26,021 nt of DNA. Source: a virus. Under the pieces are notes generated by a model, which ran no database searches, was not told where the DNA came from, and saw only the letters and a list, made by a program, of their open reading frames with translations. Each line of letters opens with the position of its first letter. Within the stretch, counting starts at the first letter, position 1. Below are positions 2,860 to 24,091 of the stretch, in pieces. The DNA lies in the IMG/VR virus record IMGVR_UViG_3300039412_000058, positions 1 through 26,021 of that record, one strand, 5' to 3'. Position numbers and translations under genes: made by a program.

Positions 2860-2918
2860 AATACATATAAGTATGATGAAATTTTAATTCCATCGCTGGA
2901 AAGTCAACAAAAATAACA

Positions 2919-4420: not shown

Positions 4421-4448
4421 TTTGTCACTTTTAATAATTTCAACTCTA

Positions 4449-4477
4449 TTTATATCATATGAACGGTGAAATGTCAA
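4449..4477 (-). promoter_or_regulatory. Promoter of the 4420-2919 operon
   Basis: Minus-strand TTGACA (4472-4477), 17-nt spacer, TATAAA (4449-4454). The -10 also reads TATAAATA, the T4-type late promoter consensus. It lies within the 5' region of the divergently oriented GIY-YIG gene. Confidence 0.65.
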
Positions 4478-5247
4478 CTACGAAAGGTGTTATATGGGAA
4501 GAAAATGTCTTAACAGAACCGAAGAAGAAATTAGAGAACAATGGAGAGTCAGGCGTATGCGGTATTATAACCGGCATAAACGAAGAATTAGAAAAGAAAA
4601 TCTTAAACGATACCACGAAAATAAGCGGAATATACAAGATAATAAACAAGGTTAACGGAAAGTATTATGTCGGAAGTTCTTGTGATATTCTTACCGATTC
4701 TTGGTCAGGAAGATGGTTTCAACATAAATATCTTTTGATGAAAAATAAACATCATAACATTAAACTTCAAAGGTCGTGGAATAAATATGGCGAAAATAAT
4801 TTTCAATTTTTAATTATAGAAAAATTACCAATCGAAAGTTTATTAAAAGTTGAACAGATATATTTAGATAAAGCAAAATTAGAAATGAAAAATTGCTACA
4901 ATGTAAGTTTTGATGCTTATTGTCCAACAAGAGGCAGAAAATTAAGTATGAAAACAAGAAAAAGAATGTCCGAATCCAAAATGGGTATAGGAAATTCTTT
5001 TTATGGAAAAACTCATACCTCTATCACAAGACAGTTAATTAGTAAAAATACTGTGTTAAATACTCCGAGAGATAAATTACATCCAAATTATAATCATAAC
5101 ATTTATAAATTTAAAAATAAAATATCAAATGAAATTTTTGAAGGAACTAAAAAAGAAATGATAGATTATTGTAAAAATAGAAATATACATCAATTATTTA
5201 CACAAAAAAGAAAATCTTCTTCGAATTGGATTTTATTAGAACGTTAA
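4459..5247 (+). CDS. GIY-YIG homing endonuclease (frame with uncertain start)
   Basis: The open frame encodes a GIY-YIG nuclease domain beginning at about 4621 (SGIYKIINKVNGKYYVGSS), then a NUMOD3-like repeat (GNSFYGKTHT) and a C-terminal NUMOD1-like DNA-binding segment ending SSNWILLER. The first 54 residues of the frame, from the ATG at 4459, look like non-coding readthrough: in that stretch the conserved protein is in another frame (ORF 4494-4655). No ATG, GTG or TTG lies in the nuclease frame close to the domain, so expression may need +1 frameshifting or reinitiation. The 3' end overlaps the convergent RNA ligase by 4 nt. The nuclease assignment is sure; the start is not. Confidence 0.8.
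   Translation: MNGEMSTTKGVIWEENVLTEPKKKLENNGESGVCGIITGINEELEKKILNDTTKISGIYKIINKVNGKYYVGSSCDILTDSWSGRWFQHKYLLMKNKHHNIKLQRSWNKYGENNFQFLIIEKLPIESLLKVEQIYLDKAKLEMKNCYNVSFDAYCPTRGRKLSMKTRKRMSESKMGIGNSFYGKTHTSITRQLISKNTVLNTPRDKLHPNYNHNIYKFKNKISNEIFEGTKKEMIDYCKNRNIHQLFTQKRKSSSNWILLER
4494..4655 (+). CDS. Small basic protein overlapping a GIY-YIG gene in another frame
   Basis: A 53-residue ORF (MGRKCLNRTEEEIREQW...) preceded by AAAGGTG, a good Shine-Dalgarno match. It is rich in Arg with a YYNRHKRRIRKENLKRY core. It aligns without gaps over 51 residues with the ORF at 17868-18023, sharing MGR, T-x-EE, RYY-x-R, RY and KRN-x-QDNK, while the alternative frame over the same DNA is not conserved. It ends about 30 nt inside the GIY-YIG domain reading. 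It could be a separate DNA-binding or regulatory peptide, or the N-terminal module of the nuclease joined by a +1 shift. Confidence 0.65.
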   Translation: MGRKCLNRTEEEIREQWRVRRMRYYNRHKRRIRKENLKRYHENKRNIQDNKQG

Positions 5248-6260
5248 GATTGTTTATAATTACTATTAATAATTTTGAGCGACCAGGACTTCCCTAACGT
5301 ATTGGAGTAGAAAGGATTTACGGGTGCTACCACTAGACCCTCGGCCGGTTGACCGTTGGTAGAATATATTTGTTTATCTGCTAAATTTTTAAACCAATCT
5401 ATCGTATGAATATCTTTGTTAAATTGACATACCATAATTTCATCAACTATGGGAATTTCAAGTTGTTTGGACAATTCTTTTAGTTCTTGATAATTATACA
5501 ATTCTCTTGTGTCTAAATTTTTTGCCCTAAAAATTCTTAATTCTATACCATCTATTCCCATTCGATTTCCATTAAGTTTATTTCCCACAGATTCCGCCTG
5601 AATTGCAAGATTTCTACCAAGAGTCGTCAACTTGTTCTTTATGTCGTATTTTGTTGCAGAATACCAAGGGAATCCGCTACCTTCTTTCAATTCAAATCTA
5701 CGAGAACAGGCTTTGAATTCCCCGTCATTGAAGATAAAAGTTGTTGAACTACCATCAACTTTTTGAGTGATGTAAATTTCTTTTCCTTCCAATTCTTGTA
5801 GAGATTTGGAATTACTTAACATATTATCTTCATCGGAAATAGAAATGAGACTGGTAGGAAATCCACCAGCGGCATCACCACGAACGGTCAAATCAAGTGG
5901 TCGTTCGTATTTTGTTATACCAAGTATTTCAGAAACATCATTTCCTTCTGAAAGGAATAAACTTCCAGGAGGTAATCCTTCTGTTTTTGGTATGATTGAC
6001 AATGGGCAGACTAAACCTGAACTTGGACTTCCACGAAATCTGGCATTCCAGATTCGGAATTTTTGTTTTCTCATAAATTCAAAATATTCCGTTTCTGGAA
6101 CAATACTATCTATAGTTATAAAAACTACTAATTCATTTTCTTTGAATTGGTCTTTTTTAATAACTACAGGCCATTCTAAAACTTTACCGATGGATAAATT
6201 GTCGGCATTTGGGTGTTGTTGAATTGAGTGAATTTTTTGTATTGTTGCTAATTTGTTCAT
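5244..6260 (-). CDS. RNA ligase, Rnl5/DraRnl type
   Basis: A 338-residue covalent nucleotidyltransferase. The N-terminal ~100 residues resemble the OB-like domain that precedes the ligase core in Deinococcus-type RNA ligase (HPNADNLSIGKVLEWPVV is characteristic). The ligase core has motif I K167-VDG, motif Ia around CSRRFE (185-190), motif III/IIIa GIDGIELRIF with E240, motif IV EGLVV (307-311) and motif V WSLKI with K329. Such enzymes seal 3'-OH/5'-phosphate RNA ends, often in nicked duplexes. The ATG overlaps the stop of the upstream HNH gene (ATGA). Together with the nearby kinase, cREC protein and tRNA genes it suggests tRNA or RNA repair. Confidence 0.9.
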   Translation of the reverse strand: MNKLATIQKIHSIQQHPNADNLSIGKVLEWPVVIKKDQFKENELVVFITIDSIVPETEYFEFMRKQKFRIWNARFRGSPSSGLVCPLSIIPKTEGLPPGSLFLSEGNDVSEILGITKYERPLDLTVRGDAAGGFPTSLISISDEDNMLSNSKSLQELEGKEIYITQKVDGSSTTFIFNDGEFKACSRRFELKEGSGFPWYSATKYDIKNKLTTLGRNLAIQAESVGNKLNGNRMGIDGIELRIFRAKNLDTRELYNYQELKELSKQLEIPIVDEIMVCQFNKDIHTIDWFKNLADKQIYSTNGQPAEGLVVAPVNPFYSNTLGKSWSLKIINSNYKQS

Positions 6261-6928
6261 AATTTATTTCTTTCCGTTATCAATTTACACCAATTAAAAA
6301 ATTCTTTTTCTTCCACGTCATGTTTCATAATGTTGACTATTTTATGAACCCACTGAACATTGTCAATCGTATATCCTTTGGAACTGTCAATTCTATCCAA
6401 TGATGCGGTTCCGTCATTTTTATTGTGCTGGGAATTGAATGATAATTCAACTCCTGATAATATGCATTTTCTATTTTGATTTAGAAATAATTTCCACAAT
6501 TGTTCTTTTGTTAAATTGAACTCCAATTTTCTTTTTTTAGCCGATTGTCGTAATGACCCCATATATGTTCCGGGCATATCACCTATACCAGTCCAGTGTG
6601 GATGTTTATTTTTTAAATAAAAGTGACTACACCCGCACGACCTAACCCTTTGTAAGGTTAAATGTGTATGACCGACGATGGTTTCATTACCACAATTACA
6701 TTTACATTTCCAATATTGTTGACCTTTGCGTTTTTCATAAAAAGATACAACAGTCAATCTGCCATATATATTTCCTGTCAAATTTTGTCGTTTTTTAGAC
6801 GGTCGTTTTCTTGAACATTCATCACAACGAGAATTATTTTTTAATGCTCTTAACAATTTATATTTACTTGAATAATTTTGTAATTTTTTACAATCAGGAC
6901 AATGTTTTTGATATAATTCGTTATTCAT
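6257..6928 (-). CDS. HNH homing endonuclease
   Basis: A 223-residue protein with three Cys-rich parts: an N-terminal zinc ribbon (CPDC at 10-13, CDEC at 35-38); a middle module of the type often preceding HNH or AP2 nucleases (GRLTVV, WKCKCNCGN, SCGC at 97-100); and a C-terminal HNH-type nuclease with LDRIDSSKGY (177-186), N190 and W193-x-H195. It sits between a canonical promoter (7000-7027) and the RNA ligase, whose start it overlaps by 4 nt, so the ligase is now probably read from a transcript that first crosses the endonuclease. Confidence 0.88.
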   Translation of the reverse strand: MNNELYQKHCPDCKKLQNYSSKYKLLRALKNNSRCDECSRKRPSKKRQNLTGNIYGRLTVVSFYEKRKGQQYWKCKCNCGNETIVGHTHLTLQRVRSCGCSHFYLKNKHPHWTGIGDMPGTYMGSLRQSAKKRKLEFNLTKEQLWKLFLNQNRKCILSGVELSFNSQHNKNDGTASLDRIDSSKGYTIDNVQWVHKIVNIMKHDVEEKEFFNWCKLITERNKL

Positions 6929-6999
6929 ACATCATACATATAATTAAAAATATTAAATCAACACTTTTTCGTTATTTTGACGTGAATAATCGTAGGGAA

Positions 7000-7027
7000 A
7001 TTATACCACAGACTTATAAAAAGTCAA
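7000..7027 (-). promoter_or_regulatory. Promoter upstream of HNH endonuclease and RNA ligase
   Basis: TTGACT (7022-7027), 16-nt spacer, TATAAT (7000-7005): a perfect -10. No ATG follows at the usual 6-9 nt (the sequence after 6 nt is ACG). The next gene start is about 65 nt away, unlike nearly every other promoter here, consistent with an insertion between promoter and original first gene. The -35 overlaps the last codons of the M23 gene. Confidence 0.7.
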
Positions 7028-7607
7028 ATTGGAACGGATTGGGGTTATTTGGCAAATCCTTGATATAACCGTATCCATCGAAATTGGTCAAATCCAATTT
7101 CTTGACAACTTGAACGTGTAAATGTTGAAAGGTATTTCCATTGGTCGGCCACGTTCCAACACGTCCAATCACTTCACCTTTGTTAAATCTTTGCTTATTG
7201 ACCAATGAGTTTGGGTCTAAATGGGCTAACACCAAGAATGGTGTATTGTTTGAATATTTGTCAGTGAAAGTCATTCTTCCGCCCCAGCCGATTTGTGTAT
7301 CGGTGTCAGTAAAAATATCAACCAAGTCGGCATCAAATGGAATCTTTACTTCGGTTCCTTCTTTGACGTTAATATCAATTCCTAAATGAATGTAATTTTT
7401 CTTTTCATCCATGTAAGTTCCGGCCCAAATATCCTTACGGTCTTCTGCCCATCCACCATAGGTATTTTTGTTTAAAGAATTCAAGGCATCCTGAATTTGT
7501 GATGGAACCTTTGTGTCAGGTATCAAAACCTTATTTGCTAAATAAAAGTCGTTGAGATTGATATAATCAAAATCTCCATCGAAAAAACTATTGCAGTTGA
7601 GTCTCAT
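7014..7607 (-). CDS. M23-family metallopeptidase
   Basis: A 197-residue peptidase of the lysostaphin/LytM type, which cleaves peptide cross-links in peptidoglycan using one zinc. Zinc ligands are visible: H74-x3-D78 in HLGIDIN and H162-x-H164 in HLHVQ, with the conserved AHLD at 128-131. There is no signal peptide or membrane segment, so it would need a holin or act within a particle. The start is the ATG at 7607, exactly 6 nt after the -10; an in-frame GTG at 7625 would lie inside the promoter. Role (lysis or entry) is inferred. Confidence 0.88.
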   Translation of the reverse strand: MRLNCNSFFDGDFDYINLNDFYLANKVLIPDTKVPSQIQDALNSLNKNTYGGWAEDRKDIWAGTYMDEKKNYIHLGIDINVKEGTEVKIPFDADLVDIFTDTDTQIGWGGRMTFTDKYSNNTPFLVLAHLDPNSLVNKQRFNKGEVIGRVGTWPTNGNTFQHLHVQVVKKLDLTNFDGYGYIKDLPNNPNPFQFDFL

Positions 7608-7613
7608 GGAAGA

Positions 7614-7642
7614 ATGATACCACAATGAAGAACTGTTGTCAA
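7614..7642 (-). promoter_or_regulatory. Promoter of the M23 gene, leaderless start
   Basis: TTGACA (7637-7642), 17-nt spacer, TATCAT (7614-7619), 6 nt, ATG at 7607. The expected transcription start coincides with the A of ATG. Confidence 0.75.
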
Positions 7643-7647
7643 GAAGA

Positions 7648-7724
7648 TGGTGGTGTTAGTGAGATTCGAACTCACACTGTAGAAATTTTAAGTTTCTTGA
7701 CTCCTGCCGTTGGTCTATAACACC
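7648..7724 (-). tRNA. tRNA-Leu (anticodon UAA), short variable loop
   Basis: Cloverleaf: acceptor GGTGTTA/TAACACC, anticodon stem AGAAA/TTTCT with loop CTTAAAA (anticodon UAA), T arm GTGAG/CTCAC with TTCGAAT, discriminator A and encoded CCA (7648-7650). The D stem is weak (GAC/GTC). The variable loop is only 5 nt, whereas bacterial tRNA-Leu normally has a long variable arm. It follows the CAU tRNA by 5 nt and shares its promoter. Confidence 0.88.
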
Positions 7725-7729
7725 GAAAT

Positions 7730-7816
7730 TGGTAGCGGGAGCAGGATTTGAACCTGCGAGGCACTTAGGCGGCGCGTTATGAGCACGCTGAGATACCGGG
7801 CTTCTCACATCCCGCA
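7730..7816 (-). tRNA. tRNA with CAU anticodon (Met/fMet or Ile2), long variable region
   Basis: Acceptor TGCGGGA/TCCCGCT with an unpaired 1:72 (U-U) position as in initiators, D stem GAGA/TCTC, anticodon stem GCGTG/CGCGC with loop CTCATAA (CAU), T arm GCAGG/CCTGC with TTCAAAT, discriminator A and encoded CCA. Oddities: three instead of two bases before the D stem and a variable region of 14 nt. Initiator identity is suggested only by the 1:72 mismatch; the anticodon stem lacks the full GGG/CCC. Confidence 0.82.
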
Positions 7817-7834
7817 ATAAAAGTTACATACATA

Positions 7835-7862
7835 ACTATACATGAAATTTAAAAACAGGCAA
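7835..7862 (-). promoter_or_regulatory. tRNA promoter (CAU and Leu tRNAs)
   Basis: TTGCCT (7857-7862), 16-nt spacer, TATAGT (7835-7840), followed by TATGTATGTAAC, nearly the same leader as at the second tRNA promoter. The remaining stretch 7863-7951 shows a short hairpin (GTATG-TTT-CATAC) but no gene. Confidence 0.65.
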
Positions 7863-7951
7863 CTAAAAATATCATTTGTGGTATATGGTATGTTTCATAC
7901 TCCGTCATATATTTATTATTATGAAAACTGTAATATGTGATTCAAAAATTT

Positions 7952-8045
7952 TGGTCGTCCTAAAGGGAATCGAACCCTAAACCTTACGCCAATCTAGCGA
8001 TTAATCCGATTATAAGTCGGACGGCTCTCCATGAGCTATAGGACG
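7952..8045 (-). tRNA. tRNA with UAU anticodon (Ile), very long variable region
   Basis: Acceptor CGTCCTA/TAGGACG (seven pairs), D stem GCTC/GAGC, anticodon stem TCCGA/TCGGA with loop CTTATAA (UAU, reading AUA), T loop TTCGATT, discriminator A and encoded CCA. The variable region is about 25 nt, containing a possible CGC/GCG mini-stem; tRNA-Ile normally has about 5 nt. The T stem has one mismatch. Its first base abuts the CC end of the upstream tRNA-Gly. Confidence 0.8.
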
Positions 8046-8047
8046 GG

Positions 8048-8119
8048 AGCAGGTAGTGGTAGTCGAAACCACGTCTCAGCATTGGAAGTGCCGAATAATA
8101 GCCGTTATACGATACCTGC
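8048..8119 (-). tRNA. tRNA-Gly (anticodon UCC)
   Basis: Acceptor GCAGGTA/TACCTGC, anticodon stem CGGCA/TGCTG with loop CTTCCAA (UCC), 4-nt variable loop, T arm GTGGT/ACCAC with TTCGACT, discriminator U. The genome continues CCC rather than CCA, and the third C is base 1 of the next tRNA, so the pair is probably cut from a dimer and the terminal A added after processing. Confidence 0.87.
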
Positions 8120-8131
8120 GTTACATCAATA

Positions 8132-8159
8132 ACTATATCACCGAACTTAAAAATGGCAA
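8132..8159 (-). promoter_or_regulatory. tRNA promoter (Gly-UCC and UAU tRNAs)
   Basis: TTGCCA (8154-8159), 16-nt spacer, TATAGT (8132-8137), then a 12-nt leader TATTGATGTAAC before the tRNA. The -35 TTGCC differs from the TTGAC used at protein genes. Confidence 0.65.
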
Positions 8160-8257
8160 TCAAAATTCATTTTTTCTTTGGGTCATATAATCTTATGTAG
8201 TTTTTACCATATAATAGTAAGTATGGAACGAAGACGCTTAATCGAACGGCTGAAATT

Positions 8258-8331
8258 TGGAGCACCATGTCGGTAGCGACCCGACTTATCTGCTTTGGCA
8301 AAGCAGCACATTACCTTTATGCTAATGGTGC
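8258..8331 (-). tRNA. tRNA-Gly (anticodon GCC)
   Basis: Acceptor GCACCAT/ATGGTGC, D stem GCAT/ATGT, anticodon stem CTGCT/AGCAG with loop TTGCCAA (GCC), 4-nt variable loop, T stem GTCGG/CCGAC with an unusual loop GTCGCTA (G instead of T at position 54), discriminator U and encoded CCA. Downstream, 8160-8257 holds no gene that I can recognise. Confidence 0.85.
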
Positions 8332-8344
8332 GTCTATGGTGATA

Positions 8345-8372
8345 AATATACACAAGTTCCGAAAAAAGTCAA
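8345..8372 (-). promoter_or_regulatory. tRNA promoter (Gly-GCC)
   Basis: TTGACT (8367-8372), 16-nt spacer, TATATT (8345-8350); the tRNA begins 13 nt further on. Confidence 0.65.
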
Positions 8373-8421
8373 GCCTTCTGCAAATATTTGCGCTTTTCCC
8401 GTTTTAACACTTTCTTTTTTA

Positions 8422-8449
8422 TTGACATTTAATAATACTGTGGTAAGAT
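8422..8449 (+). promoter_or_regulatory. Promoter of the GYF/TM2 gene
   Basis: TTGACA (8422-8427), 16-nt spacer, TAAGAT (8444-8449), 8 nt, ATG at 8458. Confidence 0.7.
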
Positions 8450-8457
8450 ATAAAAAT

Positions 8458-8940
8458 ATGAAATATTATATTCTAATCGGAAATAAAACCGGAGGCCCAT
8501 ATACAATAGAACAAGTGAAAGCATTGTATGATGCTGGAACAATTGAACAAACTAATTTATATGCTACTACGGAATCTCAGGATTGGCTTCCTGTGTCAAT
8601 GTTGATACCGTTGTTTAATATACCATCAATACCTCCCATTCCAAATTCGTCACAACCAACAATCGTCATTAACAACAGTAATAATAACAATAGTGGGAAT
8701 ATAGGAACTACAACAGTTAACGGAATTTCTCAAAAGAGTAGAATTGTTTATCAGTTGTTGGCCTTCTTTTTGGGGTCGTTTGGCGTTCACAATTTTTATG
8801 CCGGCCATAATACTAAAGGTCTGATTCAATTGTTAATCACGGTTTTAACTTGTGGTTACGGCGCATTCATTAGTTGGATATGGGCGGTAATAGAAATATT
8901 CATAATATCAGTTGATTCAAATAATATTCCAATGAGATAA
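8458..8940 (+). CDS. GYF_2-TM2 domain membrane protein
   Basis: A 160-residue protein. Residues 1-55 fit the GYF_2 (DUF4339-like) domain: short strand, GGPYTIEQVKALYDAG, then W43-LPV. An Asn-rich linker (62-92) leads to a TM2 domain (96-155) with two membrane helices and the signature GSFGVHNFYAGHNTKG. GYF_2 domains are thought to bind peptides, so this could be a membrane adaptor; its phage role is unknown. The start is the ATG at 8458; an upstream in-frame reading from 8422 would begin in the -35 box. A strong terminator follows. Confidence 0.88.
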   Translation: MKYYILIGNKTGGPYTIEQVKALYDAGTIEQTNLYATTESQDWLPVSMLIPLFNIPSIPPIPNSSQPTIVINNSNNNNSGNIGTTTVNGISQKSRIVYQLLAFFLGSFGVHNFYAGHNTKGLIQLLITVLTCGYGAFISWIWAVIEIFIISVDSNNIPMR

Positions 8941-8995
8941 TTTAGTTACGACGCTGTAGTTGTGTAAGATTGGTGTTTCATTGTTGTTGGAAATT

Positions 8996-9028
8996 GGGTG
9001 TGGAGAGAAATCTTCACACCCTTTTTTT
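8996..9028 (+). terminator. Rho-independent terminator
   Basis: Stem of 11 pairs (GGGTGTG-G-AGA / TCT-T-CACACCC, one G-T pair) closed by a GAAA tetraloop and followed by seven T. It ends transcription of the TM2 gene 6 nt before the next promoter. The only clear intrinsic terminator in the window. Confidence 0.9.
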
Positions 9029-9033
9029 ATAAT

Positions 9034-9061
9034 TTGACTTACTGATGATTTAAGTTATAAT
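9034..9061 (+). promoter_or_regulatory. Promoter of the AAA+ ATPase gene
   Basis: TTGACT (9034-9039), 16-nt spacer, consensus TATAAT (9056-9061), 9 nt, ATG at 9071. Confidence 0.75.
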
Positions 9062-9070
9062 CCCTAACAT

Positions 9071-10051
9071 ATGAACGAAATGAATTTGAAAGCCTTTGGC
9101 ACTAACTCGGTTAAACCGACAACTCCCCGAAAGAAAGCACAACCGGCCACTTCTGAAAAGAGTGAAGAAGAAAAGGATATTTTGAATTCCCTTTCTTTGG
9201 TTCAATGGGCAGTATGTGGCCCTCACACTTACAAGCCAGTTTCTTCAACCGCCACAAAACTCACCAGTGGTGTGTATAGTGTAGCGGTCAGTCAATATCA
9301 CGGAATCATTTATCAAAAGAAAAATGTCTGTGTTGATGACCTCTTGAGATTCCCCGATTCAATTTCTGAAAAGATTCTTAGCGAAATCACAACCTTCTGG
9401 GGTAAGGGAGAAAAATTTACAGAACACGGATTCCTCCACCGTAGAGGATATCTTCTTCACGGCCCTGCTGGGTCTGGTAAGACTTGTTTAGTTCAACAAA
9501 TCATTGCTGACATTGTGAACGCAGATGGTCTTGTATTCCAATGCACGAACCATCCAGCCGTATTCAATGATGGTCTTGCCCAATTCCGTAAGGTGGAACC
9601 AGACCGTCCTATCGTCTGTTTGTTTGAAGATTTGGACGCTATAATTTCGGAACATGGCGAGGATGAAATTCTACAACTTTTAGATGGTGAATCTGCCATT
9701 GATAAATGTCTTAATATTGCCACTACAAACTATCCTGAAAATTTGGATAAAAGATTAGTTGCCAGACCTCGGCGATTTGACAGAGTTATTCAGATTGGAA
9801 TGCCTTCAGCAGAAGTTAGAAAACTCTATTTTCAAAAGAAACTTAATGTTACCGATGGAGAAATTGAAAAATGGGTAAAATCGTCAGAAGGTTTCTCTTT
9901 CGCCGCTTGTGCCGAACTGGTAATTTCAATTTGTTGTTTTGAGAAACCATTTGAAACCGCCGTCAAAGATTTAAAAGAAATGATGTCAGCCAACGTTTCA
10001 AGTCGAGATTATGATAAATCTCAAAAATTGGGATTCTCAACTAATTCTTGA
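9071..10051 (+). CDS. AAA+ ATPase
   Basis: A 326-residue single-module AAA+ protein. Walker A GPAGSGKT (131-138), Walker B VCLFEDLD with D187 (an FEDLD-type box as in Bcs1/FtsH-like AAA proteins), sensor-1 Asn in ATTNYPE (N220) and an arginine finger region RPRRFDR (232-238). An N-terminal region of about 100 residues has no recognised domain and may bind the substrate. Such proteins remodel protein or DNA complexes; the target is unknown. The 3' end overlaps the convergent GIY-YIG gene by 31 nt, and base composition falls towards that end. Confidence 0.88.
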   Translation: MNEMNLKAFGTNSVKPTTPRKKAQPATSEKSEEEKDILNSLSLVQWAVCGPHTYKPVSSTATKLTSGVYSVAVSQYHGIIYQKKNVCVDDLLRFPDSISEKILSEITTFWGKGEKFTEHGFLHRRGYLLHGPAGSGKTCLVQQIIADIVNADGLVFQCTNHPAVFNDGLAQFRKVEPDRPIVCLFEDLDAIISEHGEDEILQLLDGESAIDKCLNIATTNYPENLDKRLVARPRRFDRVIQIGMPSAEVRKLYFQKKLNVTDGEIEKWVKSSEGFSFAACAELVISICCFEKPFETAVKDLKEMMSANVSSRDYDKSQKLGFSTNS

Positions 10052-10890
10052 TATTTTCCCAAACATCTCCAACCTTTTGATGATTGCCGAATTCCTTTAC
10101 ATATGACACTGACATCACTACTTGTGAGTTGAAAATTGTGACATAAATCTATCATTCTACATATTTTTTGCCCATGTATTTCATGAATAAAAATAAATTT
10201 TGTTTGAATTGTTCGTGGATTTTTTCCATTCAAGCATCGAATTTTCATAAGTTCACTTAATTTCTTTTTTGCTTCTTCTGAAAAGTTATTGTGTTTTCCT
10301 AAATTTGATGCTGATATCTTTTTTCTTATTTCATTATTAACTATTTTTCCTATATGCGACTTGCTTAATTTTTTTCTATATTCTTCCGAAAAAATTTTTC
10401 CATACATGGGATTACCAACGCCACTCATAATTTTACTCATTTTTCTCTTGTGGATTTCGGAATGTTTCTTTCCTTTATGAGAGATGCTTAATTTTCTTTT
10501 TGTTTCATTCGAATGATGTTTTCCTTTCCAATATCTCGCGTTATTCTTACTTATTAAAAATCTTGTTTCTTTTGATAATTTTATACCTCTCGTCGTAGAT
10601 TCTACATTATAACTCATATTATAAAAATTATTTGGATTTGATTTACAAACATCAAGATATTTTTGCTCGGTTTCCATCAACATAGTAGGTTCAACAGTTT
10701 CTACTACAACGAATTCAAAATTTTCTTTTCCATATTTGTTCCACGCCGATTGTAAATGTAAATTGAAGTGACGATTTTTAATTAAATTATATTTATGATT
10801 ACTAATTCTTTTAGATGTATCGACAGAACTTCCAACATAATACTTTCCATTAACTTTATTGATTATTTTGTAAATTCCACTTATTTTCAT
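10021..10890 (-). CDS. GIY-YIG homing endonuclease
   Basis: A 289-residue free-standing nuclease. The GIY-YIG domain starts at residue 4 (SGIYKIINKVNGKYYVGSS, then R at about 28 and a Glu in the later catalytic segment). A run of NUMOD3-type repeats follows (SHKGKKHSEIHKRKMS, GVGNPMYGKIFSEEYRKKLS, SHIGK), and a NUMOD1-like helix-turn-helix at the C-terminus (about 235-285, ending SSKGWRCLGKY). Unlike the other two GIY-YIG genes it has its own ATG directly at the domain edge, 2 nt after the stop of a small upstream ORF. Convergent with the AAA+ gene. Confidence 0.88.
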   Translation of the reverse strand: MKISGIYKIINKVNGKYYVGSSVDTSKRISNHKYNLIKNRHFNLHLQSAWNKYGKENFEFVVVETVEPTMLMETEQKYLDVCKSNPNNFYNMSYNVESTTRGIKLSKETRFLISKNNARYWKGKHHSNETKRKLSISHKGKKHSEIHKRKMSKIMSGVGNPMYGKIFSEEYRKKLSKSHIGKIVNNEIRKKISASNLGKHNNFSEEAKKKLSELMKIRCLNGKNPRTIQTKFIFIHEIHGQKICRMIDLCHNFQLTSSDVSVICKGIRQSSKGWRCLGKYQELVENPNF

Positions 10891-10892
10891 AA

Positions 10893-11042
10893 TTATTTTT
10901 CGTGTTTTAATTGTTTATAAAATTCTCTTAATTTATCTCCTACTTCTGGAGTGGTAAAAAAATTATACCATTTATATCCCTCTTTCTTTTTTCTTATTCT
11001 CCAATTTAATTGGGCCTTTTTAACATATATTGGTGTCTTCAT
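10893..11042 (-). CDS. Small basic protein upstream of GIY-YIG gene
   Basis: A 49-residue ORF (MKTPIYVKKAQLNWRIRKKK...) ending 2 nt before the GIY-YIG ATG (TAATTATG), so the two are likely translationally coupled. Rich in Lys and aromatic residues; no family recognised and not similar to the basic ORFs before the other two GIY-YIG genes. A weak promoter (TTGTTT 11072-11077, 17 nt, TATATT 11049-11054) places the ATG exactly 6 nt after the -10. Confidence 0.5.
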   Translation of the reverse strand: MKTPIYVKKAQLNWRIRKKKEGYKWYNFFTTPEVGDKLREFYKQLKHEK

Positions 11043-11092
11043 ATCTCTAATATATATAAGTCAAATTTCTTAAACAATAAATTTATTATCAC

Positions 11093-11120
11093 TTGACAAT
11101 TGACTACGATGACATATAAT
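11093..11120 (+). promoter_or_regulatory. Promoter of the 11128 gene
   Basis: TTGACA (11093-11098), 16-nt spacer, TATAAT (11115-11120), 7 nt, ATG at 11128. Confidence 0.75.
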
Positions 11121-11127
11121 ACAATAT

Positions 11128-11325
11128 ATGAATGAAACAAATAATAAAAAACAAGGTGATAGAGTGTATTTTGTGATGGGCGATAAACTTCCTTCTGGTT
11201 GGGGAAAAGTGTGTGGTTCCGTTGGACCTGTCATTATAATTGAATTGGAGACTCCGATTCAAGGGTATAATTTTACGCATACTTACATATTGGATGCTCA
11301 GGTTAAGGAACCGCCAAAAGAGTAA
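11128..11325 (+). CDS. Hypothetical small protein
   Basis: A 65-residue protein with alternating strands (RVYFVMGDK, GPVIIIELET, FTHTYILDAQV) suggesting a small beta-barrel, of unknown family. First gene after a strong promoter; its TAA overlaps the next ATG (TAATG), implying coupled translation. Confidence 0.75.
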   Translation: MNETNNKKQGDRVYFVMGDKLPSGWGKVCGSVGPVIIIELETPIQGYNFTHTYILDAQVKEPPKE

Positions 11326-11654
11326 TGACCACAGTAGTAAACATCAGAAAAAAGAAAGGTAAGAAATCATCTTTCTATGATGTTTATTGCGGTCGTGGTT
11401 CTCTATTTGGAAATCCATTTAAAATAGGTAGAGATGGAGATAGAAAACAAGTAATTCAAAAGTTTCGTGAGTATTTTTATAAACGCTTGACAGACGTTAG
11501 ATTTCGTGATAGTGTTTTATCTTTAAAAGGTAAAATTCTCGGTTGTTATTGTAAACCGTTAAAATGTCATCTTGATATAATCGTAGAATACCTTGAAGGA
11601 AAAGACAATGGAAACGAATATATTAATAATAAGGCAACTGATTTCTTTGGTTGA
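11325..11654 (+). CDS. DUF4326 family protein
   Basis: A 109-residue protein matching DUF4326: VYCGRGSLFGNPF near residues 20-32, an R-x5-IQKFREYF helix, and the Cys/His signature LGCYCKPLKCHLDI near 73-86, which probably binds a metal. The family is common in phages and has no known function. It overlaps the gene before it by one base. Confidence 0.85.
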   Translation: MTTVVNIRKKKGKKSSFYDVYCGRGSLFGNPFKIGRDGDRKQVIQKFREYFYKRLTDVRFRDSVLSLKGKILGCYCKPLKCHLDIIVEYLEGKDNGNEYINNKATDFFG

Positions 11655-11687
11655 TTATTATGTTTAAACAATTACTAAATATAATTT

Positions 11688-12269
11688 ATGACAAACATTG
11701 AACAAGTAAAGAAGGTAAGGGAGATTACATTAGCTCCCATCAACAAGATTAACAAAGCATTGGCCGAAACCAATGGAGACGTTGACAAGGCCATTGAAAT
11801 CCTTGTAAAACAACGTGAGGCCAGTGTTGAGGATATGGCGAATCGCAAGGCCGATAGTAGTTTTGTATATTCATACGTCCATAACAACAAGGTCGGCGCC
11901 ATGATTGTATTGGCGTCACAGACAGACTTTGTGGCGAAGAACGAATTGTTTACACAATTGGCGAAGGACATTTGTATGCACATCGTATCAAGTCCTATTC
12001 AGGCTCAATATGTTGATGAACAGAGCGTCAATGAAGCCCGACGTGGTATTGTAATGGAAGAATTGTTTAAGCAATCTGAAAACAAGCCACAGGCCATTCG
12101 TGACAAAATTGTTAAGGGTAAGATGGATAAGTGGTATTCTGAAATTTGTCTTCTAAACCAAAAGTTTGTGAAGGATGATACCATTACCATCAAGGAACTT
12201 ATCACAAAGGTTTCAGGAATTGTTGGTGAGAAGATTGAAATCAAACAATTCGTCAGACTTTCGGCATGA
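11688..12269 (+). CDS. tsf: Elongation factor Ts
   Basis: A 193-residue EF-Ts, the guanine nucleotide exchange factor of EF-Tu. Residues 1-45 are the UBA-like N-domain that binds EF-Tu (VKKVREIT, AETNGDVDKAIEIL). TDFVAKN (79-85) is the family signature, with D80-F81 at the positions that in E. coli EF-Ts push into the Mg2+ site of EF-Tu. The C-terminal part (KWYSEICLLNQKFVKDD, then GEKIEIKQFVR) matches the end of the short, single-core EF-Ts of the Thermus type, so the protein looks complete rather than truncated. It leads a cluster of three short genes and ThyX. A weak TTGATT/TACTAA pair upstream may be its promoter. Confidence 0.93.
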   Translation: MTNIEQVKKVREITLAPINKINKALAETNGDVDKAIEILVKQREASVEDMANRKADSSFVYSYVHNNKVGAMIVLASQTDFVAKNELFTQLAKDICMHIVSSPIQAQYVDEQSVNEARRGIVMEELFKQSENKPQAIRDKIVKGKMDKWYSEICLLNQKFVKDDTITIKELITKVSGIVGEKIEIKQFVRLSA

Positions 12270-12475
12270 ACGAGTTGCCTAAATGTTGTAGGGTAGAAGT
12301 GAAATTGGTTCCAAAAGACCAAATTCAAGTCTGTGGTATTGGGCCTTCATTGGAACAAAAAGAAAAAGACGGAACAATAACCGAAGGTGAAAGAATGGTA
12401 TTACACGCCTTACAGATATTCCGTATAACAAGTCAATGGGAAAATGAAGAACAAAGTAACAGACAAACAGATTGA
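12266..12475 (+). CDS. Hypothetical protein
   Basis: A 69-residue protein joined to the EF-Ts gene by an ATGA overlap. The N-terminal part is beta-like (CCRVEVKLVPKDQIQVCGIG), followed by a charged helix. No family recognised. Confidence 0.65.
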   Translation: MNELPKCCRVEVKLVPKDQIQVCGIGPSLEQKEKDGTITEGERMVLHALQIFRITSQWENEEQSNRQTD

Positions 12476-12704
12476 CGAAATCCACACGGCTATTGACGTG
12501 TTGATGAAGTGTGGATGTTGGAACGTGCTCAATGAAATGTTTACAGGCCTCGACCTGAAAGTATGGCGAACCGACATAGACATTTTGTTGAGTTATGCTA
12601 CAGCAAGTTTATCTGGTAAAAAGAATATTCCGGCAAGAGAGTCGTTTATAAATACTTGTAAAAGGATTCACCCTGATATAGAATTGTGGAAAGGATTAGA
12701 TTAA
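12444..12704 (+). CDS. Hypothetical protein
   Basis: An 86-residue, mainly helical protein overlapping the preceding gene by 32 nt. It contains an ID-x2-LLSYATASL segment and ends HPDIELWKGLD. No family recognised. A tiny ORF (12709-12735, MIEKGTEI) links it to ThyX through an ATGA overlap and may only serve coupling. Confidence 0.65.
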   Translation: MKNKVTDKQIDEIHTAIDVLMKCGCWNVLNEMFTGLDLKVWRTDIDILLSYATASLSGKKNIPARESFINTCKRIHPDIELWKGLD

Positions 12705-12731
12705 ATTTATGATTGAAAAAGGAACAGAAAT

Positions 12732-13529
12732 ATGAATGAAAGATTTGTTAAACCAAAAGTTTATTTACTTGGATATACTACTGTAGATAAAGATGCTGTA
12801 ATAGAATATCTTAAAGATACCGACCAGATTGAATTTTTAGATGAATTTGAGAAGGCTGTCAATGAAGGATTGGATGTAGGAGAAATTCTTTGTAGTTTTT
12901 ATGCTAAGGCTTGTTATGCTTCTTTAACTAATAAAAAGAATAAGAATATAACTAAAACTAGAGCCATTTATGATAATATAATTGGAATTTTGGATTCCGG
13001 CCACGGGTCTGTTATAGAACATTGTCAACTGAATTTTATGGTGACAAATTGTAGTCGTGTGTTTACACACGAATTGGTCAGACATAGAGCCGGAACAGCA
13101 TTTAGTCAGACATCAGGTCGTTATGTTAGAACTGATAAATTGAATGTGGTAATTGACCCAATTCTTGAACCTGTGTATGATTTAGTTGAAGAAGCCCGTC
13201 TATATTTGGAGCGGTGGTATAAAAAGATGGAAGACCGTCTTAAAATAGACCAAGTGAAGGATTTTGGAACCAAAAAAAAATTGACGAGTGCTATGCGAAG
13301 AATGTTACCTAATGGTCAGGCAAATGAAATGGGAGTGTCTCTAAATCTTCGAGCATTACGTCATACGATTGAAAATAGAACTTCAAGACACGCCGAGTGG
13401 GAAATTAGATATATTTTTAATCAAATTTACAGTTTGATGAAAAAGAAATATAAGGCAATGTTTTTTGACGCAAAGGAAGAAGAAATAGAAGGATTGTTGG
13501 AAATTACATTTAAAAATAAAAAAGTGTAA
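12732..13529 (+). CDS. thyX: Flavin-dependent thymidylate synthase ThyX
   Basis: A 265-residue ThyX, making dTMP from dUMP with FAD, NADPH and methylene-tetrahydrofolate. GHGSVIEH (90-97) and the ThyX signature RHRAGTAFSQTSGRY (117-131) are present; the loop between RHR and the Ser before the closing RY is one residue longer than in the forms I recall (for example RHRxxSxSQxSQRY). NLRALRHTIENR and AEWEIR near the C-terminus match the conserved substrate-binding helices. AAGGAA about 8 nt before the ATG is a plausible ribosome site. It supplies dTMP for phage DNA synthesis. Confidence 0.95.
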   Translation: MNERFVKPKVYLLGYTTVDKDAVIEYLKDTDQIEFLDEFEKAVNEGLDVGEILCSFYAKACYASLTNKKNKNITKTRAIYDNIIGILDSGHGSVIEHCQLNFMVTNCSRVFTHELVRHRAGTAFSQTSGRYVRTDKLNVVIDPILEPVYDLVEEARLYLERWYKKMEDRLKIDQVKDFGTKKKLTSAMRRMLPNGQANEMGVSLNLRALRHTIENRTSRHAEWEIRYIFNQIYSLMKKKYKAMFFDAKEEEIEGLLEITFKNKKV

Positions 13530-14443: not shown

Positions 14444-14449
14444 TTGATT

Positions 14450-14911
14450 ATGAGTAACGAAAATTTGTATTTGTATATTTTAATACGAACGGATTTAGGG
14501 AGTATGTCCGTAGGGAGGGCAGCGGCTCAGGCCTCCCACGCGTCAAATGCCTTCATCCACAAGTTCGGCGATAATGCTGACGTTAAGCTTTGGCAGGCCC
14601 AGACCCCTCAAGGTTTCGGCACCGCCATCGTCCTTTCCGCCAATTTGTTTGATATTGCTGAAACCTTGGACGAATGTAAGAATTCTGGTTTTGAAGTGTA
14701 TGACACTGTGGTTGACCCTGACTACGTTGTGCCGATTTCATCTGAACTCGTTCCGTTCTTGAACAAAGACGATAAGAGAATTACCGTTGAACAGTCGGCC
14801 ACAGACCCTAACAAGTCTTTCATCCACCGTTCAGAAGTTACTTGTGCCTATGTTTTTGGTGACAAGGAAAAGTTGGCACCGATTCTTTCAAGATTTCCTC
14901 TCTACTCGTAG
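14450..14911 (+). CDS. Peptidyl-tRNA hydrolase 2 (PTH2)-like protein
   Basis: A 153-residue protein of the PTH2 (Bit1) fold, whose members release peptides from drop-off peptidyl-tRNA. Visible elements: LYILIRTDLG strand, SVGRAAAQASHASNAF (20-35; the family has GKxAAQxxHA), FGTAIVLS (56-63), DTVVDPDYVVP (85-95) and TCAYVFG (131-137). The catalytic-region Lys of the family is Arg here (R23) and the D-A-G-x-T segment is altered, so activity is likely but not certain. The ATG at 14450 is exactly at the predicted transcription start. With EF-Ts and tRNAs it fits phage support of translation. Confidence 0.75.
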   Translation: MSNENLYLYILIRTDLGSMSVGRAAAQASHASNAFIHKFGDNADVKLWQAQTPQGFGTAIVLSANLFDIAETLDECKNSGFEVYDTVVDPDYVVPISSELVPFLNKDDKRITVEQSATDPNKSFIHRSEVTCAYVFGDKEKLAPILSRFPLYS

Positions 14912-15202: not shown

Positions 15203-16363
15203 ATGAGCGATTTTTTCGATATCCCTAAACGAACGGCGAATAAAAAGGTCTGGCCAACACTTTATAGTCGAGATACTACAGGAAATATAAGAGAATGGTT
15301 CCTTGAACAGGAAGAAAATAAATACCGAACGAACTCCGGCGTCCAAGGTGGTCAATTTGTAGTGTCCGAATGGACGGCTGCTGAAGGTAAGAATGAGGGT
15401 AAGAAGAATGAGACGACTTCTACTGCACAGGCAATCAAGGAAATTCAATCCAAATATAAAAAACAACTTGAATCTGGATATTTTGATGATGTGTCAAAGG
15501 TTGATGATTTCCAATACTTTCAACCAATGTTGGCTCATAAGTGGTTAGACCACAAAGATAAGGTAGATTTTTCTAAAGGCGTTTGGATTAGTCCGAAATT
15601 GGATGGCCTTCGTTGTGTTTTCACAAAATTTGGAGCATTTTCGAGAAACGGGAAAAAATTTGTTTCATTTCCTCACATTGAGAGAGAATTAAAACCTCTA
15701 TTTGATAAAGACCCAAATCTTGTTTTGGATGGTGAAATATATACCCATCTTCTAAAAGAGGATTTTGATAAAATTATTTCGTTGGCAAAGAAAACCAAAC
15801 CAACCAATGATGATATTGTTGAGAGTGAAAAACATCTTCAATATTGGATTTTTGATTATCCGTCTTGTTCTGGAGATTTTGATAATAGATATAATTCTTT
15901 AAAGAAATTAATTCTTGAAAATTTTCGTGATAACAAATGGATTCGGTTGTGTATTCATAAACTTATTCATAGTGAAGCCGAGTTGGAAACTGCTCTTGGA
16001 GAATGGTTACAACACGGATTTGAGGGGGCAATGCTAAATTTGAGAGATGGAATGTATTTGAATAAACGTTCGACTAATCTTCTTAAATACAAACTGTTTC
16101 AAGACATCGAGGCAACAGTAACCAACATTACAGAAGGTGTTGGGAATCGGTCAGGGATGTTCGGTTATGCTACTCTTAAACTTTCAAACGGAAAAACGTT
16201 TGATTCAAATGCCCGAGGCAATGAAGAACAGTATAAAAGAATTTTGAAAAATAAATCTGATTATATTGGGAAATCTGCTACAATTCGGTTCCAGAATTAT
16301 ACTCCAGATGGAATTCCTCGTTTTCCTGTTATCGTTCAATGGGCACGAGAGGATTGTGAATAA
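15203..16363 (+). CDS. ATP-dependent DNA ligase
   Basis: A 386-residue covalent nucleotidyltransferase. Residues about 15-60 (KVWPTLYSRDTTGNIREW ... GGQFVVSEW) resemble a WGR domain, which binds nucleic acid in some bacterial and phage ligases. The catalytic core has motif I PKLDGLR with K132, motif III LDGEIY (175-180), motif IV EGAML and motif V LLKYKLF, followed by an OB-fold domain in the last ~90 residues. It seals nicks in DNA during replication, repair or recombination. Leaderless start; the 3' end is overlapped by the remnant of a convergent endonuclease gene. Confidence 0.92.
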   Translation: MSDFFDIPKRTANKKVWPTLYSRDTTGNIREWFLEQEENKYRTNSGVQGGQFVVSEWTAAEGKNEGKKNETTSTAQAIKEIQSKYKKQLESGYFDDVSKVDDFQYFQPMLAHKWLDHKDKVDFSKGVWISPKLDGLRCVFTKFGAFSRNGKKFVSFPHIERELKPLFDKDPNLVLDGEIYTHLLKEDFDKIISLAKKTKPTNDDIVESEKHLQYWIFDYPSCSGDFDNRYNSLKKLILENFRDNKWIRLCIHKLIHSEAELETALGEWLQHGFEGAMLNLRDGMYLNKRSTNLLKYKLFQDIEATVTNITEGVGNRSGMFGYATLKLSNGKTFDSNARGNEEQYKRILKNKSDYIGKSATIRFQNYTPDGIPRFPVIVQWAREDCE

Positions 16364-16885: not shown

Positions 16886-17283
16886 GAGGAAAATTTATCT
16901 TTGAGGCAATTCAAGAAGGTGAAGACGAATCACTTCGTCAAATCTACTTCAATCCTCCTTTGGTGATTGAGTATAGTATTTACGATAAAATTGACAAAGA
17001 AACCGGCAAGGAAAATTATCCAGAAGATTCTGATTTGATGGGGTTTTTTACATTCGACTTCGGTATGATGGGCGAATGTTCATTGGATTCTAAAAATAAT
17101 TTTTTATCTCATGGGTATGAAGGACTTACAAAAGAATCTCCTGTGGAAGATGTTTTGATGAAATCTATTATGTTTGATTTATTTCATGCGTTTTTTCATA
17201 CTTCACAAGACCCTAACTATGGATTTTATCATCACGCTTTATATGCGTATTTGAAAGATAGAACGATTCTTAAAGGCGATTAG
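16882..17283 (+). CDS. Hypothetical protein
   Basis: A 133-residue acidic, aromatic protein, family unknown. It has a beta-like first half (GFFTFDFGMMGEC) and a C-terminal helix with clustered His and Phe (FHAFFHTSQDPNYGFYHHALYAYL). The 3' end overlaps the convergent GIY-YIG gene by 14 nt. Confidence 0.72.
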   Translation: MRGKFIFEAIQEGEDESLRQIYFNPPLVIEYSIYDKIDKETGKENYPEDSDLMGFFTFDFGMMGECSLDSKNNFLSHGYEGLTKESPVEDVLMKSIMFDLFHAFFHTSQDPNYGFYHHALYAYLKDRTILKGD

Positions 17284-17995
17284 TTTTAATTAACACCCAA
17301 CCTTTAGTGGATTTTGCCTTTTTTCTAACTAATTCACTTACACAAGATGGAAGTAGATTATATTTTTTACGAAAATCAAATTGAGTTCCTGTAAAGGTTT
17401 CTTTTGTTAATATATTTAAAAAATGATAAATGTTCCTATTGAATTTACTATTACCTTCACCACAGAATTTGGGCCTTTTGCCTGACATTTTCTTTTTACA
17501 TTCTTCCGTGTGATGTTTTCCATAAAATGCCGGCTTATGGTGTTTATAGTAGTTTTTCAAACTATTGACCATTTTTAATCTTGACGTTTCATTTTCACAT
17601 GGCGAACCGCATGTGTTGAATGTTAAATTATAACATAAATTTTTTCGGTTATTTTTAATTTCATCCAAATATTTTTGTTCTATTTCTAATAACTTTAATT
17701 TTTCGGGCTTATTGAAAATTACAAATTCAAAATTCTTCTCTCCATATTTGTTCCACGCATTTTGAAGATATGAATTTTTATGAACATTTCGATTTAATTC
17801 GCTTCTGTGTTCGTTCCATCGTCTATTGATGTTTTTAGAGCTTCCAATATAATACTTTCCATTAATTTTATTTATTATCTTGTAAATTCCGCTTACTTTT
17901 CCAATATCTTTCCATTCGTTTACGTTTGGCGATTTCTTGGTTACGATAGTAGTATCGTAGTTGACGTTTTCTTCGAGCTTCAAGTTGTTCTTCAT
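17270..17995 (-). CDS. GIY-YIG homing endonuclease (frame with uncertain start)
   Basis: The frame carries a GIY-YIG domain starting at about residue 34 (SGIYKIINKINGKYYIGSS, then R in NRRWNEHR), a NUMOD3-like region (FYGKHHTEECKKKMSGKRP) and a C-terminal NUMOD1-like segment (FTGTQFDFRKKYNL ... STKGWVLI). The 33 residues before the domain appear to be shadow reading of the conserved basic ORF at 17868-18023, and no start codon lies near the domain. As at 4459, production of the nuclease may involve a +1 shift or reinitiation. Convergent with the gene at 16882, overlapping by 14 nt. Confidence 0.8.
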   Translation of the reverse strand: MKNNLKLEENVNYDTTIVTKKSPNVNEWKDIGKVSGIYKIINKINGKYYIGSSKNINRRWNEHRSELNRNVHKNSYLQNAWNKYGEKNFEFVIFNKPEKLKLLEIEQKYLDEIKNNRKNLCYNLTFNTCGSPCENETSRLKMVNSLKNYYKHHKPAFYGKHHTEECKKKMSGKRPKFCGEGNSKFNRNIYHFLNILTKETFTGTQFDFRKKYNLLPSCVSELVRKKAKSTKGWVLIKTNRL

Positions 17996-18106: not shown

Positions 18107-18433
18107 ATGAATGATGATAAACTCATATCGGAATCTGAACTAAAGGATTATTTTCCTGGTAAAAATTGTGGTTGTAATGCGTCTTGTCATTCTGAATGTT
18201 GTTGCTCGGATGTAGATTGGACATCAATAGAAGTCTATGATTTGAGATTGAAGGTGTTCAGACTAAAAGTTAAGACAATTAAGGCTGAAAACTATCTGTC
18301 TAAATTCCTTCGTCTTGTAAAGGAATTAAAAACTTTAGATGAAATGAATTTTGGCGATGAATCTTTATTGGAAACGTCTCATCCTGTTTCAAAAATTAAT
18401 GATTTGATAAATGAGATTGAAAAATCACATTAA
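18107..18433 (+). CDS. Cys-rich hypothetical protein
   Basis: A 108-residue protein. A Cys/His cluster at 21-33 (CGCNASCHSECCC) probably binds zinc; the rest is predicted helical (LRLKVFRLKVKTIKAENYL ... LINEIEK), possibly a coiled coil. No known family. The predicted transcript starts at its ATG. The next gene has its own promoter 40 nt further on. Confidence 0.75.
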   Translation: MNDDKLISESELKDYFPGKNCGCNASCHSECCCSDVDWTSIEVYDLRLKVFRLKVKTIKAENYLSKFLRLVKELKTLDEMNFGDESLLETSHPVSKINDLINEIEKSH

Positions 18434-18471
18434 AAATCTTTTCCGATTCTTCTATTTCAGTCGTCCTGCGC

Positions 18472-18500
18472 TTGACTTCTCACTTGGTCTATGTTACCAT
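18472..18500 (+). promoter_or_regulatory. Promoter of the DEDD exonuclease operon, leaderless start
   Basis: TTGACT (18472-18477), 17-nt spacer, TACCAT (18495-18500), 6 nt, ATG at 18507. Confidence 0.78.
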
Positions 18501-18506
18501 AGGCCT

Positions 18507-19088
18507 ATGTATTTATTTTTAGACAATGAAATGGGCGGACTTGAAAGGGAGAAACATTCTCTCTTGACAGTTTACCTAATGATGACCGATGACAACTACA
18601 ACGTCATTGTTGGCGAGCTTTACCTTTATTTGAAGCCGGACGACGGAACTTACAAAGTCTGTGGCGAAGCCATGGCGGTCAACAAAATCAATCTTTTGGA
18701 ACACGATAAGAAAGCCATCACCTACAAGGAAGGTGGCACAAAGTTATACAATTGGTTGAAATCTTTGACTGACAACGGAAAGGTTAAAGCCACTGTCGTT
18801 GGTCATGGAATTCATGGTGACGTTGATTGGATTGTCTATCACCTTATGAGTCGTGCTTCCTTTGAGAATTTCACTTCTTATAGAAAATTGGACACAAGTT
18901 CAACGTGTCAGTTCCTAAAGTCTGTGGGAATGTTCCCAGAGGATGTTAGCGGAAGTCTGGTATCGTTGGCGAAACACTTCAAGGTTGAAGTTGACGAGAA
19001 CGCTGCCCACGACGCCAAGTATGATACTCAACTGACGTTCAAGGTGTTCTTGGCTTTGAGAAAAATGTTTGTTGGAACTCCTATTTGA
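18507..19088 (+). CDS. DnaQ-like 3'-5' exonuclease (DEDDh)
   Basis: A 193-residue RNase-H-like exonuclease. Exo I is LFLDNEMGG (D6, E8), Exo II is in GHGIHGDVDWI and Exo III is AAHDAKYDTQ (H and D near 168-172), giving the DEDDh set. The length and single-domain layout fit free-standing trimming exonucleases acting on DNA or RNA 3' ends. The start is the ATG at 18507, at the predicted +1; a longer in-frame reading upstream runs through the promoter. It is the first gene of an operon with 19092 and the phosphoesterase at 19469. Confidence 0.87.
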   Translation: MYLFLDNEMGGLEREKHSLLTVYLMMTDDNYNVIVGELYLYLKPDDGTYKVCGEAMAVNKINLLEHDKKAITYKEGGTKLYNWLKSLTDNGKVKATVVGHGIHGDVDWIVYHLMSRASFENFTSYRKLDTSSTCQFLKSVGMFPEDVSGSLVSLAKHFKVEVDENAAHDAKYDTQLTFKVFLALRKMFVGTPI

Positions 19089-19091
19089 TTT

Positions 19092-19472
19092 ATGAAACTT
19101 ATTCGTTCAAAAGAATGGTATGAAGAAAGGATTGCCAAAGAAGGCGATTCTGAAATTGGTGCTGGGACACTTCAATCATTGCCTGATACAATCATCCGCA
19201 TGGATGATGGGGTATTATTTCTTTTGAATAAAGAGACGAACAAGTATCGTGCCCATTTGGGTATTCCACACTTGGACGACCCGAAGCACCTTCATAATGA
19301 ATACACCTATGAACGCTTGATGATTGACCCACGGAATAAGGGGTTATTCAAAGTCGCAGACGGAACGGAAGACCTTGAAGCCATAAGGCGGGCGTATCAA
19401 AAGAGTTTCTTGAAATCGCACCGTTACTGTGGTAACGATGACGATGAAGATTGTGGTAAGGGTAGAGAATGA
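19092..19472 (+). CDS. Hypothetical protein
   Basis: A 126-residue protein of unknown family with an acidic tail (GNDDDEDCGKGRE). The middle reads like a small domain with IIRMDDGVLFLLN and RAHLGIPHLDDPKHLH. It lies 3 nt after the exonuclease stop and overlaps the phosphoesterase gene by 4 nt. Confidence 0.72.
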   Translation: MKLIRSKEWYEERIAKEGDSEIGAGTLQSLPDTIIRMDDGVLFLLNKETNKYRAHLGIPHLDDPKHLHNEYTYERLMIDPRNKGLFKVADGTEDLEAIRRAYQKSFLKSHRYCGNDDDEDCGKGRE

Positions 19473-24088: not shown

Positions 24089-24091
24089 GTT

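Follow-up and report, generated by a model that had tools for sequence, protein, structure and literature searches.

The window, by which is meant the whole 26,021-base IMG/VR virus record that was analysed, holds on its plus strand an open reading frame that runs from an ATG start to a TGA stop at 11688-12269 and encodes 193 amino acids. The features within this gene and around it are given here, with the evidence for each in brackets.

1590-2063, minus strand: P-loop kinase similar to the Pnkp kinase domain (AAA_33, 1.2e-27; TIGR04075 over profile positions 8-139, below its cut-off)
5244-6260, minus strand: RNA ligase, DRB0094/Rnl5-like, probably for tRNA repair (PF09414, phrog_968; TIGR02306 below its cut-off)
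7648-8331, minus strand: five tRNA genes, Leu-TAA, Met-CAT, Ile-TAT, Gly-TCC and Gly-GCC (ARAGORN; the same five occur in the viral contig G002)
11688-12269, plus strand: EF-Ts (tsf), 193 aa, single-module Thermus type (TIGR00116 above cut-off, PF00889, 1AIP, predicted structure)
11688-11822, plus strand: UBA-like N-terminal domain, residues 1-45, with N22 for the conserved Lys and N19 for the usual hydrophobic residue (model helices 3-14, 18-27 and 32-42; residue table)
11922-11942, plus strand: exchange loop T79-D80-F81-V82-A83-K84-N85 (D80, F81, V82 and N85 invariant in all eight phage copies)
11991-12137, plus strand: dimerisation (coiled-coil) module, residues 102-150, with K133-P134 and KI.GK..K (aligned to the dimerisation region of 1TFE/1AIP)
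12138-12266, plus strand: C-terminal part of the core, residues 151-193, with V179-G180 (1AIP alignment, residue table)
14444-14911, plus strand: PTH2-family peptidyl-tRNA hydrolase-like protein (PF01981, 7.7e-7; PDB 1XTY, 9e-4 by profile; co-occurrence with EF-Ts)

The strength of the match between 11688-12269 and EF-Ts is far outside chance. The product scored above the cut-offs of both the NCBIfam tsf equivalog TIGR00116 (3e-35, 121.8 bits against 104.05) and Pfam PF00889 (EF_TS; 1.7e-25, 90.2 bits against 27), and Thermus thermophilus EF-Ts (PDB 1AIP chain C) was aligned end to end over residues 1-191 at 1.4e-34, the whole-length match being recovered also by profile (3e-50). No PHROGs family matched the 193-aa protein. 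A Shine-Dalgarno-like motif lies upstream of 6 of the 33 gene starts in the window, and the EF-Ts start is among those without one. The gene is real, and its product is a single-module EF-Ts of full length and of the Thermus (homodimer) type, in agreement with the sequence-only reading, which had taken it as complete and had located the TDFVAKN motif with D80-F81, found here at residues 79-85.

The AlphaFold2 model of the protein has a mean pLDDT of 88.2 and a pTM of 0.69. Its core and dimerisation part superimposes on 1TFE with an rmsd of 1.9 Å over 137 residues (Z 19.0), and sequence and model together cover the whole of 1TFE, that is, one core module with its dimerisation hairpin. The full chain matches 1AIP_H with Z 20.4 and an rmsd of 7 Å over the whole chain, the latter being consistent with a UBA domain that the model sets differently against the core. 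The N-terminal three-helix bundle of the model (residues 1-44) matches UBA domains (Z 8.3, 1.3 Å), whereas the Pfam UBA model stayed below threshold (12.0 bits against 22.4), and the UBA domain claimed earlier is thus kept as a fold but not recognised by sequence. In E. coli and M. tuberculosis EF-Ts an internal repeat mimics the Thermus homodimer (PMC9529903); for the single-module protein of the window we infer dimerisation.

The gene is assigned to a phage because of the viral contigs on which it lies and the phage-type genes around it; no phage structural gene was identified within the 26,021-base window. The gene order of the window parallels positions 59.7-93.3 kb of G002, a viral contig of 214,733 bases, the shared genes being those for metallophosphoesterase, kinase, RNA ligase, peptidase M23, a small protein, DUF4326, EF-Ts, PTH2, DNA ligase, exonuclease and NAD synthetase. 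On the strength of this synteny, host contamination was rejected as the source of the window EF-Ts; it also upholds the earlier statement that it is phage-encoded. A further contig of 10.3 kb (L002) is 99.98% identical to window positions 2719-13051. Three stretches of the window (15203-16363, 18411-19472 and 23654-24346) are 92-97% identical to G002, as against 52-82% for neighbours such as EF-Ts, a mosaic of sequence identity that suggests recent recombination. By sequence resemblance, GIY-YIG-like homing endonuclease genes lie at window 4459-5247, 10021-10890 and 17270-17995, and their relatives are scattered elsewhere in G002 and in the 353.8-kb contig G009. The NAD synthetase gene (24377-26020) is open at the end of the window, and loci L155-L165 of G002 carry an NAD module with, among the matches listed, nicotinate phosphoribosyltransferase, ribose-phosphate diphosphokinase, NMN adenylyltransferase-like proteins, Sir2, PARP and two ADP-ribosylglycohydrolases.

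Jumbo phages are known to carry PTH2, a peptidyl-tRNA hydrolase of archaeal-eukaryotic type (PMC7824862). The window protein at 14444-14911 reached 29.8 bits against a cut-off of 23 for PF01981, over residues 10-55 only, and 22.8 against 126 for the NCBIfam PTH2 equivalog, and this 155-aa protein, which matches PTH2 in its first part only, may be a derived version. PTH2 was found in seven of the eleven EF-Ts records, being absent from three records shorter than 39 kb and from the 96.8-kb contig of L189; its loci are 79706-80167 in G002 and 59648-60100 and 131789-132139 in G009, and G009 and LR756511 carry two each. Both G002 and G009 also carry many tRNAs together with a tmRNA gene, at 200712-201103 on the plus strand of G002 (L165:712-1103) and at 15248-15637 on the minus strand of G009 (L166), with tag peptides ending in VAVA and LAIA, respectively. 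Amber-reading tRNAs with a CUA anticodon, called Pyl by ARAGORN, were found at G002 207801-207876 (L165:7801-7876) and G009 131456-131530 (L172:11456-11530), and TAG is the stop codon of 3 of the 40 gene models of the window.

Scans of 2.9 million viral contigs recovered seven further distinct EF-Ts copies that are 51-70% identical to it, the longest of their contigs measuring 353.8 kb, and the distant single-module L189 (35% identity), whose 96.8-kb contig has few phage-family matches around the gene. The copy of G009 (L018 5001-5666) is extended at its C-terminus by some 30 residues that the others lack. In 50,697 phage records, the only genuine-looking carriers among the matches inspected were CcrColossus and the 595-kb uncultured phage LR756511. 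LR756511 encodes a 139-aa EF-Ts without the dimerisation module (locus L006 9998-10417), possibly a minimal monomeric form, for which one scan found no relatives. The copy of Acinetobacter phage MD-2021a, the one record with an EF-Ts annotation that was inspected, was rejected as a phage gene because its rpsB-tsf chromosomal neighbourhood is host sequence, and those of Pseudomonas phage Y1 and the fecal contig MT835604 are long, two-module and bacterial in type, and are probably host contamination. A pattern scan of viral contigs with the loop motif returned mostly the same contigs again and unrelated proteins, and a BFVD fold search gave the CcrColossus EF-Ts as its sole meaningful match. With so few carriers among these contigs and records, phage EF-Ts is rare, as the sequence-only reading had stated; for huge phages, EF-G, EF-Tu and EF-Ts are all named by Al-Shayeb et al. 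2020 (PMC7162821).

Phylogeny against bacterial and huge-phage EF-Ts had been suggested earlier as a check. The eight phage copies form one clade apart from the sampled bacterial EF-Ts with support of 100/100, and on the aligned sequences the window EF-Ts belongs to an old phage-only branch. When LR756511 and L189 were added, all ten phage rows fell on one side of a branch (95/95), although both are long branches and their join is not trusted; nor is a sister relation between LR756511 and the window clade (support 98/48, branch length 4.4). The position of the clade relative to the bacteria is unsettled (AU test, p 0.41), and its branch is long whether the two longest phage rows are included or left out. 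Outside Verrucomicrobiota, the single-module EF-Ts in the tree came from Thermus and two Nitrospirota-like genomes. A recent capture from Verrucomicrobiota was considered and not upheld: the best bacterial matches are from Opitutia, but the scan was biased to motif matches, and the Thermus match was as strong as the best Opitutia/Puniceicoccales match (174 and 176 bits). The dN/dS ratio was 0.13 for L011/L014 (dS 0.24), the only pair with unsaturated dS, and 0.12-0.27 in the other estimates, which rest on near-saturated dS; to judge from these codon comparisons, phage EF-Ts is under purifying selection.

EF-Tu contact residues have been described for E. coli, P. aeruginosa and M. tuberculosis (PMC3747624; PMC9529903). 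D80, F81, I125 and G126 of EF-Ts contact the G domain of EF-Tu, and H147, I151, K166, M170, A174 and V234 in E. coli numbering contact its domain III (PMC3747624). In M. tuberculosis the contacts are R13, K24, D77, N82 and H149, complex formation being affected by R13, N82 and H149 (PMC9529903). As the residue table shows, all eight phage copies share R11, H65, D80, F81, V82, N85, K93, M97 and G180 without variation. E. coli H147, I151, K166, M170 and V234 correspond to H65, V69, K93, M97 and V161 of the window EF-Ts, so that the domain-III contacts are present, and M. tuberculosis R13, N82 and H149 correspond to R11, N85 and H65, all three retained. The mean identity between phage and bacterial copies is 52% in residues 53-101, 41% in residues 151-193, 29% in the dimerisation module and 30% in the UBA domain. 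Together with the invariance of the exchange residues and the domain-III contacts, these regional identities indicate that the exchange face has been kept and the UBA contact has not.

In the solved M. tuberculosis complex K24 (E. coli K23) forms a salt bridge to D144/D145 of EF-Tu (PMC9529903). The contact is conserved, but the residue does not define EF-Ts. The Lys was present in all 43 bacterial copies sampled, which are mostly from Verrucomicrobiota and do not stand for all bacteria, and also in Thermus, Acinetobacter, LR756511 and L189, but it is Asn in five and Ala in three of the eight phage copies (N22 in the window EF-Ts). The position of M20 is likewise polar in the phage copies, being N, T or K (N19 in the window EF-Ts). 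The sequence-only reading had missed this altered UBA contact. With this Lys lost and the UBA domain so divergent from the bacterial ones, affinity or kinetics toward EF-Tu may differ; that the changed contact tunes affinity or partner choice is speculative. The UBA change is the one point here that might surprise a specialist.

No EF-Tu-type GTPase (GTP_EFTU family) was found in nine EF-Ts phage records, which include contigs of 595, 354 and 215 kb and of which some are fragments, and a phage-encoded EF-Tu partner was accordingly rejected within these records. The family scans of G002 covered about two thirds of its genes with the best 25 families each, and further translation factors are possible there. 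For elongation factors, phages nearly always rely on borrowing. Should the protein function like the rest of its family, its partner should be host EF-Tu, and for both the exchange activity and this partner we infer as much. The core interface is invariant in the eight homologues, selection on the gene is purifying and the searched relatives have no EF-Tu of their own, and judged from these comparative data the window EF-Ts is very probably active as an exchange factor for host EF-Tu, in line with the earlier view that exchange on EF-Tu looked possible. The reading that a jumbo-type phage encodes here a complete single-module EF-Ts that acts as a homodimer in guanine-nucleotide exchange on host EF-Tu is given a probability of roughly 77%.

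As in the T. thermophilus 2:2 complex, one protomer would insert its TDFV loop (D80-F81) next to the G domain of EF-Tu, on the Mg2+/P-loop side, and the other would grip EF-Tu domain III through H65, K93 and M97. GDP would then leave, and GTP and aminoacyl-tRNA would reload on EF-Tu. The phage protein would in this way add exchange capacity during infection by recycling host EF-Tu, and may be one of a set sustaining translation with the tRNAs, RNA ligase and kinase, PTH2 and, in the relatives, tmRNA.

By analogy with Q-beta replicase, the protein could instead bind host EF-Tu chiefly for sequestering or redirecting it, either to slow host translation or to serve a phage machine as subunit or chaperone. 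Q-beta uses host Tu-Ts (PMC9071432, introduction), and the phage copies changed the EF-Tu-facing UBA surface (K to N/A, M to N/T/K) while retaining the core contacts. A pure sequestering protein would not need the GDP-release residues, however, and these are invariant; the adjoining genes support translation rather than shut-off, and no phage protein partner is indicated. This alternative is unlikely, and for the redirection of EF-Tu, escape from EF-Tu-targeting defence and Q-beta-like role that had been proposed earlier no supporting evidence was found, leaving them as speculation. Distinctly unlikely, too, is a special form of the exchange-factor reading, namely that the phage-only lineage, with a re-worked UBA contact and a fast-changing coiled coil on an intact exchange core, is tuned to infection, recycling host EF-Tu on the phage's terms and avoiding host or toxin proteins that act via normal Tu-Ts.

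Improbable, too, is a replacement of host EF-Ts that supports translation but withholds the cofactor from weapons that depend on EF-Ts. Tu-Ts and its coiled coil are needed by some tRNA-cleaving toxins. Mutants of tsf altered in the coiled coil resist CdiA-CT toxins (PMC9071432); the dimerisation module is the most divergent part of the phage clade (34% identity in residues 102-150 against 80% in 53-101), and the RNA ligase and Pnkp-like kinase nearby are probable tRNA-repair genes. The same region is, however, the least conserved in bacterial EF-Ts as well, both in the sampled copies (51% against 70%) and in the literature (PMC3747624), and the host has no known toxin or defence target. That the copy is decaying or incidental, or that bacterial sequence was mis-binned as viral, is highly improbable and was already disfavoured, for in spite of the shorter remnants in LR756511 (139 aa) and CcrColossus (98 aa) and of several EF-Ts matches in phage databases that look like host contamination, eight divergent copies are intact and under purifying selection, in a phage gene neighbourhood common to the window and the 214.7-kb viral contig.

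The EF-Ts encoded in the window has several known counterparts. EF-Ts in huge phages has already been reported, and the window adds a full-length example of this kind. The consulted text of PMC7162821 describes, without analysing the protein itself, elongation factors G, Tu and Ts that are supposed to maintain translation efficiency; shared features are the phage-borne gene, the very large genomes and a reading as sustaining translation, whereas the LR756511 form lacks the dimerisation module that the window copy has. Gp247 of Caulobacter phage Colossus (CcrColossus; PMC3556154, 2012) is an EF-Ts domain in a cultured jumbo phage and shares the conserved Phe, but it is truncated at 98 aa, and its full function was doubted because the dimerisation domain is missing. 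Beyond these two sources nothing was found in the literature on the function of phage EF-Ts, and no paper testing it. The 139- and 98-aa forms make a natural series for how little EF-Ts may be needed, and a full-length EF-Ts that selection maintains in several large phages, without EF-Tu in the searched records, offers a direct test of whether phages raise the rate of host EF-Tu recycling during infection. With Thermus thermophilus EF-Ts (1AIP, 1TFE) the window protein shares 35% identity over its whole length, one core module plus UBA in about 195 aa, the dimerisation module and the TDFVA.NE loop, and it differs in being phage-encoded, in lacking the conserved UBA Lys and in having V189 for C190. 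The single-module EF-Ts of Opitutia/Puniceicoccales (Verrucomicrobiota) share its core and length (about 190-200 aa) at 36-44% identity, but the bacterial copies keep the UBA Lys (43/43 sampled) and the phage clade stands on its own long branch. The consistent loss of this EF-Tu-contacting Lys is a specific, testable contrast with bacterial EF-Ts.
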